A stretch of DNA of 64,000 bases from Chitinophagales bacterium (lineage in GTDB: Bacteria; Bacteroidota; Bacteroidia; Chitinophagales; Saprospiraceae), in NCBI GenBank assembly GCA_013299105.1, contig JAAFJY010000020.1:62001-126000 (forward strand), read 5' to 3'. How positions within the stretch are numbered: the first letter of the stretch is position 1; the number at the start of each line of letters is the position of its first letter. Shown here one piece after another: positions 53,148 to 55,789 of the stretch. The notes under the pieces are model-generated. The model had not been told where the DNA came from. It did no database searches and was given only the letters and a program-made list of their open reading frames with translations. Position numbers and translations under genes: made by a program.

Positions 53148-54086
53148 ATGTTAAGCCGTAGAAACGTCCGCATAAAAGTCATGCAGATGCTGTACGCCCT
53201 GGGTCGCGACAAGGAGCTGAAATTTGATGAAGCTTTGAAATTGTACCGGGAGCAAGTGAGCCAATCGTTTGAATTGTACTTATTCAACCTGCTTTACTTT
53301 ATACGGGTGGCTGAATATGCCATTCAAGATAAGGCTGACCGCAAAGCCAAAATCCGTCCTACCGAAGAAGATAAGGTATTCACATCCAAACTAGCCGAAA
53401 ACTCACTTTTGGAATCGCTACGCAAGAACGGCCCCCTATCCACCCTTTTCAAGCATTTCAAACTCGAGGAGTCTATCGACAAGGACCATGTGCGCACATT
53501 TTATTTGGAATTTGCCAAAAAGGAAGAGTACCTGGCTTACCTCAAGAAAGCTGAAAACAGCCAAGAAGAACACTTGGAAATACTGCTTACGTTGTATCGC
53601 CAGTATTCAGCTACTGAGTTGTACGAAGAATTAAACGAGGATATGTTCCCTCACTGGCCCGATGACGAATCATTGATCGTTGGGTCCATGAAAAAAACCA
53701 TCAAGGCCCTGCCTGTTCCGATGCATTTTTATGAGGCTTACCGCCCCAACAAAGAAACAACAGTTGATTTTGGCGAAGTTCTGATGCGCAAAGTCCACGA
53801 TGAGGACGAAGAGCTGCTGAAAATTATCGAACCTGCTCTCAAAAACTGGGATGCAGAGCGTGTAGCAGCCATCGACATGATTTTGATCAAAATGGCCCTA
53901 GTAGAATTGATGACTTTTACCTCCATCCCACCCAAAGTGTCCTTGAATGAGTTTGTAGAGATCGCCAAAAACTACAGCACCGATAAGAGCAAAGACTTCA
54001 TAAACGGCATCCTTGACCGCTTGCTCAAGCAACTGGAAAACGACGGGAAAATCCAAAAAGATGGTCGGGGTTTGATCGATGAGTGA
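53148..54086 (+). CDS. nusB: Transcription antitermination protein NusB (long Bacteroidota form)
   Basis: A protein of 312 residues. The N-terminus (MLSRRNVRIKVMQMLYAL) and the C-terminal part (LMRKVHDEDEELLKIIEPAL, AAIDMILIKMALVELMTF, VSLNEFVEIAKNYSTDKSKDF) are clear NusB motifs. NusB with NusE binds boxA of rRNA operons. Escherichia coli NusB has about 140 residues; here about 170 extra residues lie between the two conserved parts, a feature seen across Bacteroidota. A near -7 box TTACTTTG lies at 53107-53114. It is followed by a 217-bp MITE rather than by yajC/coaE-type partners. Confidence 0.9.
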   Translation: MLSRRNVRIKVMQMLYALGRDKELKFDEALKLYREQVSQSFELYLFNLLYFIRVAEYAIQDKADRKAKIRPTEEDKVFTSKLAENSLLESLRKNGPLSTLFKHFKLEESIDKDHVRTFYLEFAKKEEYLAYLKKAENSQEEHLEILLTLYRQYSATELYEELNEDMFPHWPDDESLIVGSMKKTIKALPVPMHFYEAYRPNKETTVDFGEVLMRKVHDEDEELLKIIEPALKNWDAERVAAIDMILIKMALVELMTFTSIPPKVSLNEFVEIAKNYSTDKSKDFINGILDRLLKQLENDGKIQKDGRGLIDE

Positions 54087-54161
54087 GGTTTGAGCCTTGA
54101 CATTTGCTAAACTTCCAAAGTTTGGTAAACGTTAAGGCTCAATTCTTTATCTTGAAAAAGG

Positions 54162-54378
54162 GTAAGTTCTCAATCCTTAAATATCCGTTTACGCGTTACA
54201 AACGCGTGGAAGATGGTTCCGGTCAGAGACCGTGAACCAGCGTCCATTGAGTGTTGTGCTGGTGTCAGGTCTCCTGACCGACACCGGGCATTTGCACGTT
54301 TGCAACGTGCTTACGAGTACTTTCCTTTGAAACCTTAGCCAGCGTAAGGTCCTGGTAAAACACGGATTGAGAACTTAC
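54162..54378. mobile_element. 217-bp IS66-type MITE candidate with five hairpins
   Basis: Perfect 15-bp inverted ends GTAAGTTCTCAATCC and GGATTGAGAACTTAC, flanked on both sides by GAAAAAGG, an 8-bp target duplication. IS66 elements have ends starting GTAA and duplicate 8 bp. Inside are five short hairpins: 54191-54207 (ACGCGT/ACGCGT), 54215-54238 (GGTTCCGGTC/GACCGTGAACC), 54261-54285 (GGTGTC, GGTC / GACC, GACACC), 54294-54310 (GCACGTT/AACGTGC) and 54333-54349 (CCTTA/TAAGG). There is no ORF. It is the only copy in the window. Confidence 0.85.
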
Positions 54379-54403
54379 GAAAAAGGGAAGCTTTTACGCT
54401 AGC

Positions 54404-55789
54404 TCAAATAATCTCAAAATAGCGTTTCCGCTCCCAATCGGTGACCGCCCGACTGTACTGCTCCCACTCCCATTCGCGGGTAAGCAGGAAATGATCACAA
54501 AAATCTGCGCCAAATAGCTCGTCACCGAGTCCCGACACCCTCATGGCCTGGGTGGCTTCCAACAGGCTGCTGGGCAAGGGAGTAGCATGTTCTTGCTCGT
54601 AAGCATTTCCTTGAATTGCTGGCAACTCCAACTTCAATTTGTTTTTGATCCCATACAAGCCAGAGGCCAAGCTAGCCGCAATGGCCAGGTAAGGATTGGC
54701 ATCAGCCCCTGGTATCCTGGTCTCCAAACGCATGGAAAACGCTGGATTGGGAATCACCCGTAAGGCAGCGGTCCGGTTTTCGATGCCCCAACTCACTGAA
54801 ACTGCGGCCCAAGAACCCTTCACCAAGCGCTTGTAGCTGTTGACTGTAGGTGCATACATGGGCATGATGTGTGGCAGGCAGTGTAGTTGACCTGCGATGT
54901 AATGCTGCATCAAAGTGCTCATGCCATTGGGCTCATTGGCGTCCAGGAAAAGGTTTTGCTCCCCATCATCCGACCAGAGATTTTGGTGAATATGGCCACC
55001 ACAACCAGGCAATTGATCGTTCCATTTGGCCATGAAGGAGGCCATGATGCCACTGCGTTGGGCAATTTCTTTGACCGCATTCTTGAACAAAACTGCTCGG
55101 TCGGCAGCCTCCAAAGTGGTGCTGTGGACCAGGCTGGCTTCGTAAACGCCGGGGCCAGTTTCGGTGTGCAAACCTTCAATAGGTACTTCAAAACGCAGCA
55201 AATTATCGAAAAGCTCATTAAAATAGTGGCTGTACTGGTTCGGTCTGGTCAATGAATAGCCAAACATGCCCGGTGTCAAAGGGATCGGGTTCACGAAACC
55301 ACGGTCTTGGAGGCTATGGGCGGAATCCATGAAGTTGAACCACTCATATTCGAGTGCAAACTTGGCCAAAAAGCCCATCGCGCTGCATTGTTCCTCAATT
55401 TTGCGCAGCAGTGTTCTTGGGCAAGCAGAGGCTACCTGGGGATCACCTGCAAAGTCGGCGAGGAAAAAAGGTAAATCATTGTCCCAAGGCACCCGCCTTA
55501 GCGTATTTAAATCCACTCTTGCCATCGCATCGGGATAGCCAGTATGCCAACCGCTGATTTTAGAATTGTCATAACAGACGTCACTGCTATCCCAGCCAAA
55601 AATCACATTGCAGAAGCCAAGGCCACTGTTCAGGGTTTTTTCCAATTTGGAGCGGTTGATGACTTTGCCGCGCAAAACGCCGTCGATGTCACAGACCGCG
55701 TATTTTACTTTTTGTTCCTCTGGAGGAAGGATTTCGTCAAGCATGGGTTTGGTGATTTGAAACGGAAAAGTAGCGTAATTTTTGCTCAA
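54404..55789 (-). CDS. Glutamine synthetase family protein (PuuA-like)
   Basis: A protein of 461 residues, of the glutamine-synthetase superfamily. The catalytic barrel shows EYEWFNF, TETGPGVYEASL, GCGGHIHQNLW, NSYKRLVKGSWA, NRTAALRV and LETRIPGADANPYL, matching the ATP- and glutamate-binding sites. Relatives with this N-terminus (CDIDGVLRGKVI) are gamma-glutamyl-amine ligases such as PuuA/GlnT rather than true GlnA, so it may glutamylate polyamines or monoamines. Its ATG overlaps the stop of the upstream DUF72 gene by 4 bases. It lies 25 bases beyond the MITE. The substrate is uncertain. Confidence 0.87.
   Translation of the reverse strand: MSKNYATFPFQITKPMLDEILPPEEQKVKYAVCDIDGVLRGKVINRSKLEKTLNSGLGFCNVIFGWDSSDVCYDNSKISGWHTGYPDAMARVDLNTLRRVPWDNDLPFFLADFAGDPQVASACPRTLLRKIEEQCSAMGFLAKFALEYEWFNFMDSAHSLQDRGFVNPIPLTPGMFGYSLTRPNQYSHYFNELFDNLLRFEVPIEGLHTETGPGVYEASLVHSTTLEAADRAVLFKNAVKEIAQRSGIMASFMAKWNDQLPGCGGHIHQNLWSDDGEQNLFLDANEPNGMSTLMQHYIAGQLHCLPHIMPMYAPTVNSYKRLVKGSWAAVSVSWGIENRTAALRVIPNPAFSMRLETRIPGADANPYLAIAASLASGLYGIKNKLKLELPAIQGNAYEQEHATPLPSSLLEATQAMRVSGLGDELFGADFCDHFLLTREWEWEQYSRAVTDWERKRYFEII

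Follow-up and report, generated by a model that had tools for sequence, protein, structure and literature searches.

A gene-free 217-bp mobile element of a Chitinophagales bacterium and its likeness to RAYT-associated hairpin units

Results

The element and its surroundings

The window analyzed here is a stretch of 64,000 nucleotides from the draft genome of a Chitinophagales bacterium (7.67 Mb, 77 contigs). The element lies in it between two convergent open reading frames (ORFs), one of 312 aa that ends at 54086 and one of 461 aa on the other strand that ends at 54404, which we take to be nusB-like and glutamine-synthetase-like, respectively. A preliminary description made from the sequence had given the element perfect 15-bp inverted ends and an 8-bp duplication, and both were found at the locus as claimed: GAAAAAGG stands as a direct 8-bp duplication on either side of the 217-bp element (Table 1). 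The ends are the sole matches to the terminal inverted repeat (TIR) in the 64-kb window with up to 3 mismatches allowed. No ORF of ≥70 aa overlaps 54162-54378, so the element is gene-free, as had been described.

At 54090-54142, just past the upstream ORF, a long inverted repeat (TTGAGCCTT ... AAGGCTCAA) precedes a T-rich stretch; this could be the terminator of the upstream gene, though our terminator scan did not list it. The proposal that the hairpins of the element act as a terminator gained nothing from that scan, a simple one, which returned 0 intrinsic terminator sites around the window copy.

Table 1. Features of the 217-bp element and its borders in the window
Feature	Positions	Strand	Basis or remark
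Left 8-bp target duplication, GAAAAAGG	54154-54161	.	Sequence
Left terminal inverted repeat, GTAAGTTCTCAATCC	54162-54176	+	TIR searches
REP-like unit type L, two hairpins and foot AGCG	54183-54243	+	Model R1, 74.3 bits, E 1.2e-17
Hairpin A of unit L, ACGCGTT-ACA-AACGCGT	54191-54207	+	Same hairpin flanks the C45 RAYT gene
Hairpin B of unit L, GGTTCCGGTC-AGA-GACCGTGAACC, bulged	54215-54238	+	Fold, alignment
Center, AGC/GCT feet of both units facing	54239-54260	.	Order reversed vs congener doublets
REP-like unit type R, inverted	54256-54318	-	Model R1, 82.0 bits, E 1.1e-19
Hairpin B of unit R, + strand GGTGTC-A-GGTC-TCCT-GACC-GACACC	54261-54285	-	Fold, alignment
Hairpin A of unit R, - strand GCACGTT-GCA-AACGTGC	54294-54310	-	Fold, alignment
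Fifth hairpin, in the variable right arm (54311-54363)	54332-54350	+	Not conserved
Right terminal inverted repeat	54364-54378	-	TIR searches
Right 8-bp target duplication, GAAAAAGG	54379-54386	.	Sequence

Copies, target duplications and empty sites

Of 107 candidates in its own genome 40 were scored, which gives at least 40 copies of the element. With up to 2 mismatches allowed, the TIR has 145 occurrences there (100 of them listed), against 7 for the reversed control. The loci that were fetched hold 49 element places, 39 of which have both ends within 180-260 bp. Among these two-ended copies the 8-bp duplication is perfect in 16, has one mismatch in 5 and has 2-8 mismatches in 18, and the target duplications of the family are AT-rich (GC 27%). 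Empty sites were sought by joining the flanks of each copy without the element and without one of the duplications, and comparing the result to other loci. For 16 of the 49 elements (13 in the 217-bp class, 3 in classes that share its TIR) the joined flanks had a match at another locus that spans the junction, and 7 of these matches are gap-free. Examples are the pairs L025 and L059 (90.9% over 132), L036 and L006 (87.2% over 141) and L013 and L055 (90.1% over 172). Because there are many copies, 8-bp duplications and gap-free empty counterparts, the 217-bp element is a genuine MITE, which is what the preliminary description had supposed and what its suggested genome search could bear out. Four congener genomes (drafts, one of them 86% complete) gave no match to the element, the plasmid and phage collections gave none either, and a search of Rfam returned matches only far below the gathering scores.

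With crude ORF calling and no significance test, 41 copies were examined for their setting: the neighboring ORFs are co-directional for 18, convergent for 13 and divergent for 4, while 3 copies fall inside short ORFs and 3 stayed unplaced; the gaps of ≥20 bp in the window comprise 23 co-directional, 5 convergent and 6 divergent ones.

Several related elements were seen along the way. A class of 243-246 bp carries an extra partial repeat of hairpin B in its center (L050:2820-3065, L054:1556-1798, L057:2842-3085). A dispersed repeat of ~140 bp hosts several TIR elements (L006:963-1103, L008, L032, L036, L044 and others). Elements of 275-352 bp share the TIR and have a different interior (L047:1522-1870, L048:3039-3385, L053:1563-1910, L032:4386-4737, L041:1569-1912, L044, L052, L066 and L068). 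Strong folding is also seen in this interior (z -8.8 for L047), which has the string TACAAACG in common with hairpin A; it is perhaps a third type of REP.

Search for a mobilizing transposase

Elements of the IS66 family have ends that begin with GTAA and make 8-bp target duplications. The element agrees with this rule on both points, and in this respect its earlier assignment as IS66-like stands. No parent was found in the genome: PF03050, the IS66 transposase family, has 0 matches in the own genome (draft, 77 contigs), and a profile built from three IS66-type transposases has 0 matches there at E ≤ 1. The same profile identified one element in the congener G004, and PF03050 is present in 20 of 61 genomes of the family. 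The congener element (L132, G004:C80) is cut by a contig end and, by eye, has strong palindromes just inside its ends.

We examined 23 IS66-type loci. Perfect 8-bp duplications were found at 8 of them, all from the same order as the host and two being the same element; the rest gave no end pair with a perfect duplication. At these 8 loci, the ends agree with that of the MITE in 8-11 of their 15 positions. The best is GTAACTATTCAGTCC of L207, a match of 11/15 that was picked from several elements and carries no chance control; the other end of L207 matches at 10/15, and the other elements with perfect duplications match at 8-9 of 15. The exact 15-bp TIR was seen in 99 other genomes of the family only as two isolated 15-mers, which we estimate to be about the number expected by chance. 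In the searches made, no gene-bearing element with the ends of the MITE was found, and the full IS66 element with matching ends that had been looked for did not turn up, the best end seen matching at 11/15. The IS66 link of the element is thus plausible and unproven.

Fold and conservation of the hairpins

The element was described as holding five stable hairpins, and all five are present as local structures in the window copy. Folded as RNA, it has a minimum free energy of -93.3 kcal/mol, compared with -57.7 (sd 3.9) for shuffles (z -9.2); the other strand gives z -8.7 as RNA, and z -9.2 was obtained for DNA. When one half of the element is inverted it can be aligned with the other, 49 of 76 positions agreeing, and four of the five hairpins make up two inverted copies of a two-hairpin unit of 61-63 bp. 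Each unit consists of hairpin A (..CGTT/AACG.. with a 3-nt loop), a spacer of 7-8 nt, the bulged hairpin B and then AGC(G), which we call the foot.

Conservation was measured in an alignment (A2) of 29 of the 39 two-ended copies, ten truncated, composite or longer copies having been left out. Over these 29 full-length copies, 94.6-98.9% of cells are paired in the first four hairpins and 35.5% in the fifth, which for this reason is not a feature of the family; the description of five hairpins holds for the window copy and, as a conserved trait, for four. The number of parsimony steps per site is lowest in the hairpins (0.77 over 83 sites) and rises through the TIRs (1.63 over 30) and the linkers (2.02 over 51) to the right arm (3.02 over 53); the four hairpins vary less than the linkers (p = 1e-5) and less than the TIRs (p = 1.5e-4). 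Pairwise identity follows the same order, at 0.90-0.97 for hairpins, 0.88-0.90 for TIRs, 0.70-0.86 for linkers and 0.63 (0.634) for the right arm. Since sites of hairpins and linkers alternate along the element, the contrast between them should not stem from the way the copies were found, while the contrast with the right arm may be inflated by it. Selection on source elements, action of a RAYT on the units or homogenization among copies would each suffice to explain the constancy of the hairpins.

Compensatory changes among the MITE copies, which had been proposed as a check, occur at chance level (12 cells vs 11.4 shuffled), because the stems hardly vary. We also aligned the units themselves (A4: 43 of 52 diverse units, with one spurious, two truncated and six others dropped by choice). 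Between unit types the stems differ and the pairing is kept, in 95.1% of cells vs 88.2 shuffled. Double-change cells number 70 vs 27.2 shuffled, with 1 to 8 in slid controls; pairs changed on both sides (5 vs 3.9 shuffled) and further pair types (15 vs 15.3) show no excess. Since these two of five measures stand at the level of the shuffles and the excess comes largely from the split between types L and R, the number of covariation events is small.

Association of the units with RAYT genes

The pattern of hairpin A has 76 matches in the own genome, 0 in the control and 0 in four congeners; with its flank, a wider scan of genome contigs gave one match, in Rhodopirellula. Some of the matches in the own genome lie outside TIR-bounded elements. 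Two of them, C45:36632 and C45:37386, flank a Y1 transposase gene (C45:36700-37299), one on each side. The 200-aa protein it encodes scores 84.5 bits (cut-off 80) against NCBIfam NF047646, REP-associated tyrosine transposase (RAYT), and also matches Pfam Y1_Tnp. The units on its two sides are inverted, with hairpin A inward and the AGC foot outward. The genome has two more RAYT loci, L182 (G000:C10; 63% identical), which is intact, and L184 (G000:C31), which is broken. Both have inverted two-hairpin flanking units of other sequences in the same order with the AGC(G) foot, their hairpin B being of the GGTACAAGTC type. The matches outside TIR-bounded elements also include L141 (G000:C4:51946-52807), where four REP-like units form a tandem array of ~266-bp repeats that adjoins, by eye, a gene resembling an ABC transporter ATPase.

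The C45 protein contains the motifs NHLH, IWQ, YIHHNP and YSSARNY, and the other two RAYTs have YVHNNP. In the part of the literature available to us, RAYT subclass 2.6 (Bertels group 5, Bacteroidetes) is given the motifs NH[LIV]H, WQ, YIH[QN]NP and SS, and its genes are said to have, on either side, atypical secondary structures that are repeated in the genome and do not have GT[AG]G (PMC6006769). The three proteins fit these motifs nearly, not exactly. The conserved foot of our units is likewise AGC(G)/(C)GCT, not the 5' GTAG/GTGG of the canonical REP.

A covariance model of the unit, R1, was applied to 150 candidates in each genome (the own genome having 2377) with E ≤ 1. Under these settings R1 has 146 matches in the own genome and 9, 20, 29 and 30 in four congeners, whose best E values range from 3.9e-5 to 2.4e-8. 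Both units of the window copy are rows of the 43-row model, so their scores in Table 1 are high by construction, and the kinship of unit L rests on the hairpin A pattern and the RAYT-flanking copies, not on its R1 score.

RAYT homologs are present in 12 of the 25 genomes searched, the own included, and 21 of 30 fetched loci could be evaluated for flanking repeats. Within the genus, inverted flanking repeats were found at 6 of 6 RAYT loci with both flanks (z 21.6-65.4); these are the three of the own genome, one with a broken gene, and three of congeners. R1 matches flank both sides in 5 of the 6 (one weakly, E 0.007) and one side in L237. RAYT fragments account for 5 of the 11 fetched loci of the genus; four have no inverted flanks and one could not be evaluated, and two of the five are one split gene with an R1 match on one side. 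Outside the genus the picture is mixed (11 RAYT loci, z -1.5 to 22.8). Near six stronger Y1_Tnp genes of another kind (L176-L181) there are 0 matches to the hairpin motifs or R1.

We conclude that the hairpin units are atypical, non-canonical REPs, because the C45 units, and differing units of similar architecture at other RAYT loci, flank these genes in inverted orientation. The remark that the element has more structure than transposition needs was a fair one, and it can now be accounted for: four of its five hairpins are REP-type units that also flank a RAYT gene.

Order of the units

In the MITE the units stand foot to foot, whereas in the congener doublets that were read the conserved foot points outward, which is the order of REPINs. 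A feet-outward inverted pair was found at 12 of 14 fetched congener loci, taken from the best listed R1 matches of G002-G004 and with none of G001. The congener doublets read mostly belong to the REP family of L182 and L184, with the hairpin B given for these two loci. In the own genome 133 of the 146 R1 matches were listed and classified: there are 45 feet-inward pairs, 37 of them with the same 12-nt spacing between matches, besides 32 units that stand alone, a tandem array of four and a few others. Four foot-outward pairs of the REP family of the MITE were seen in this genome (C23, C21, C11 and C18), two with a truncated half. By eye, each of them has one L-type and one R-type unit, and the MITE likewise has one L and one R, feet inward (29 of 29 rows of A2). 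Because its feet point inward and those of the congener doublets outward, the core of the MITE is derived from REPIN parts and is not a REPIN.

Three TIR elements, L007, L013 and L048, sit within doublets of the second REP family. Insertion in the middle of a doublet was seen for the 217-bp class at 2 of 33 scanned loci (L007 and L013, the second half of L007 being recognized by eye), and L048 is a longer TIR element inside a doublet. Compared with L055:2748-2949, the three interrupt copies of a single REP doublet family, in the middle but not at the same point.

Discussion

The 217-bp element is best explained as a DDE-type MITE carrying a permuted pair of RAYT-associated atypical REP units, and we give this reading a probability of roughly three in four. 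The element seems to unite selfish DNA of two kinds. As its copies and empty sites show, it transposes through its 15-bp ends and duplicates 8 bp of the target, and it is most likely mobilized in trans by an IS66-type DDE transposase that the searches did not find in the assembly. Its interior consists of two atypical REP units, each with two hairpins and an AGC(G) foot, like those beside a RAYT (Y1/HUH) gene elsewhere in the genome; the association of such units with the gene is observed, and the enzyme presumably recognizes them. The foot-to-foot order is the one expected where neighboring doublets adjoin or where an excised doublet closes into a circle. If two TIR ends came to lie in two adjacent doublets, the enclosed stretch of unit, feet and unit could become a new transposable unit, a route suggested by a few cases. 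The hairpins may stay constant either because the RAYT still acts on the units or through homogenization among genomic copies.

It could also be that the hairpins are subterminal sites inherited from a lost autonomous IS66-type parent and that the RAYT gained the same sequence secondarily. The hairpins do vary even less than the TIRs, as would parts needed in transposition, and the IS66-type element of congener G004 has palindromes just inside its ends (by eye). We nevertheless find this improbable: in the 275-352-bp elements with the same TIR the interior is another one and does not match the unit, and units of like architecture and differing sequence are found on the flanks of other RAYT loci of the genus, where they make up doublets that lack these TIRs. 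Those other interiors, which share the TIR, also weigh against the proposal that the RAYT itself moves the element as a variant of the REP doublet and that the TIRs and 8-bp duplications are incidental. This proposal draws on the complete inverted pair of RAYT-associated units in the element and on the foot-inward pairs, which take 90 of the 133 listed unit matches in the own genome. Y1 transposases (IS200/IS605) are not known to make a target duplication. With an 8-bp duplication of at most one mismatch in 21 of 39 copies, and empty sites that close at the TIR, the proposal is largely refuted and we consider it very improbable.

A role in the host has to be weighed as well. REPs are stated to act as terminators, in the protection of mRNA 3' ends and in protein binding (PMC6006769, as far as that source was available), and the hairpins might be kept for such a function, their likeness to REPs being secondary. 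Copies lie between convergent ORFs more often than the gaps of the window do (13/41 vs 5/34) and between divergent ORFs less often (4/41 vs 6/34), both by crude ORF calling, but an orientation bias of this kind is expected of any tolerated insertion, and the region has no terminator-like site. An ancestral role in the host is unlikely because the family was not found in four congeners. We therefore attach only a small likelihood to a host function as what keeps the hairpins.

Within the reading as a MITE with permuted REP units, a more specific and tentative idea, which we hold to be unlikely but less so than the alternatives above, is that the core of the MITE is a fossil of a RAYT transposition intermediate, with the units joined as at the joint of an excised doublet circle and trapped between DDE ends. 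REP doublets have been proposed as the moving unit, and how RAYTs move them is called unresolved in the part of the source we had (PMC3116915); the core of the MITE may record the joint expected of an excised doublet. If so, the element would be spread by one enzyme system and its hairpins selected by another, a dual-system mobile element.

A MITE with a permuted unit whose hairpins are steadier than its ends makes an interaction between HUH (single-strand) and DDE (double-strand) systems testable. The REPs of the Bacteroidetes subclass appear only as atypical structures in the sections available to us (PMC6006769). The six RAYT loci with two-hairpin units in one genus would define a REP type for this subclass of RAYTs.

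The element resembles IS66-family MITEs, presumably of the ISBst12-like subgroup, in its GTAA ends, AT-rich 8-bp duplications and lack of a gene. No parent was found in the genome, and the element differs from them in a TIR that matches the ends of relatives' elements at 8-11 of 15 positions and in an interior of RAYT-associated kind. With REPIN/BIME-RAYT systems it shares multi-copy hairpin units in inverted pairs, a RAYT gene flanked by inverted units, and different RAYTs of one genome with different units; unlike REPINs and BIMEs, its units are reversed, feet inward, and are enclosed in TIRs with 8-bp duplications. ISPpu9 reportedly inserts into REPs in Pseudomonas putida and is thus a mobile element that uses REPs as a target, while the present MITE itself carries them. 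Compared with classical REPs, the foot of our unit is (C)GCT, not GT[AG]G, and the unit has two hairpins. Hairpin B is bulged, as is the REP stem of E. coli, where the RAYT requires the bulge according to the part of the report at hand (PMC8266576). The likeness to RAYT subclass 2.6 lies in atypical flanking structures that recur in the genome. Among the titles listed in our literature search, we recognized none on REP units as permuted-order cargo of a TIR-bounded MITE. The nearest precedent in the sections available is the REP dimers regularly embedded in palindromes, GTAG-15 of A. variabilis and CGTC-1 of H. neapolitanus, in a paper that also mentions RAYT-like genes flanked by TIRs (PMC3733652). 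Section 7 of that paper makes no mention of a TIR with target duplication or of the reversed order in these dimers; what they have in common with our element is a REP pair embedded in another palindromic sequence.
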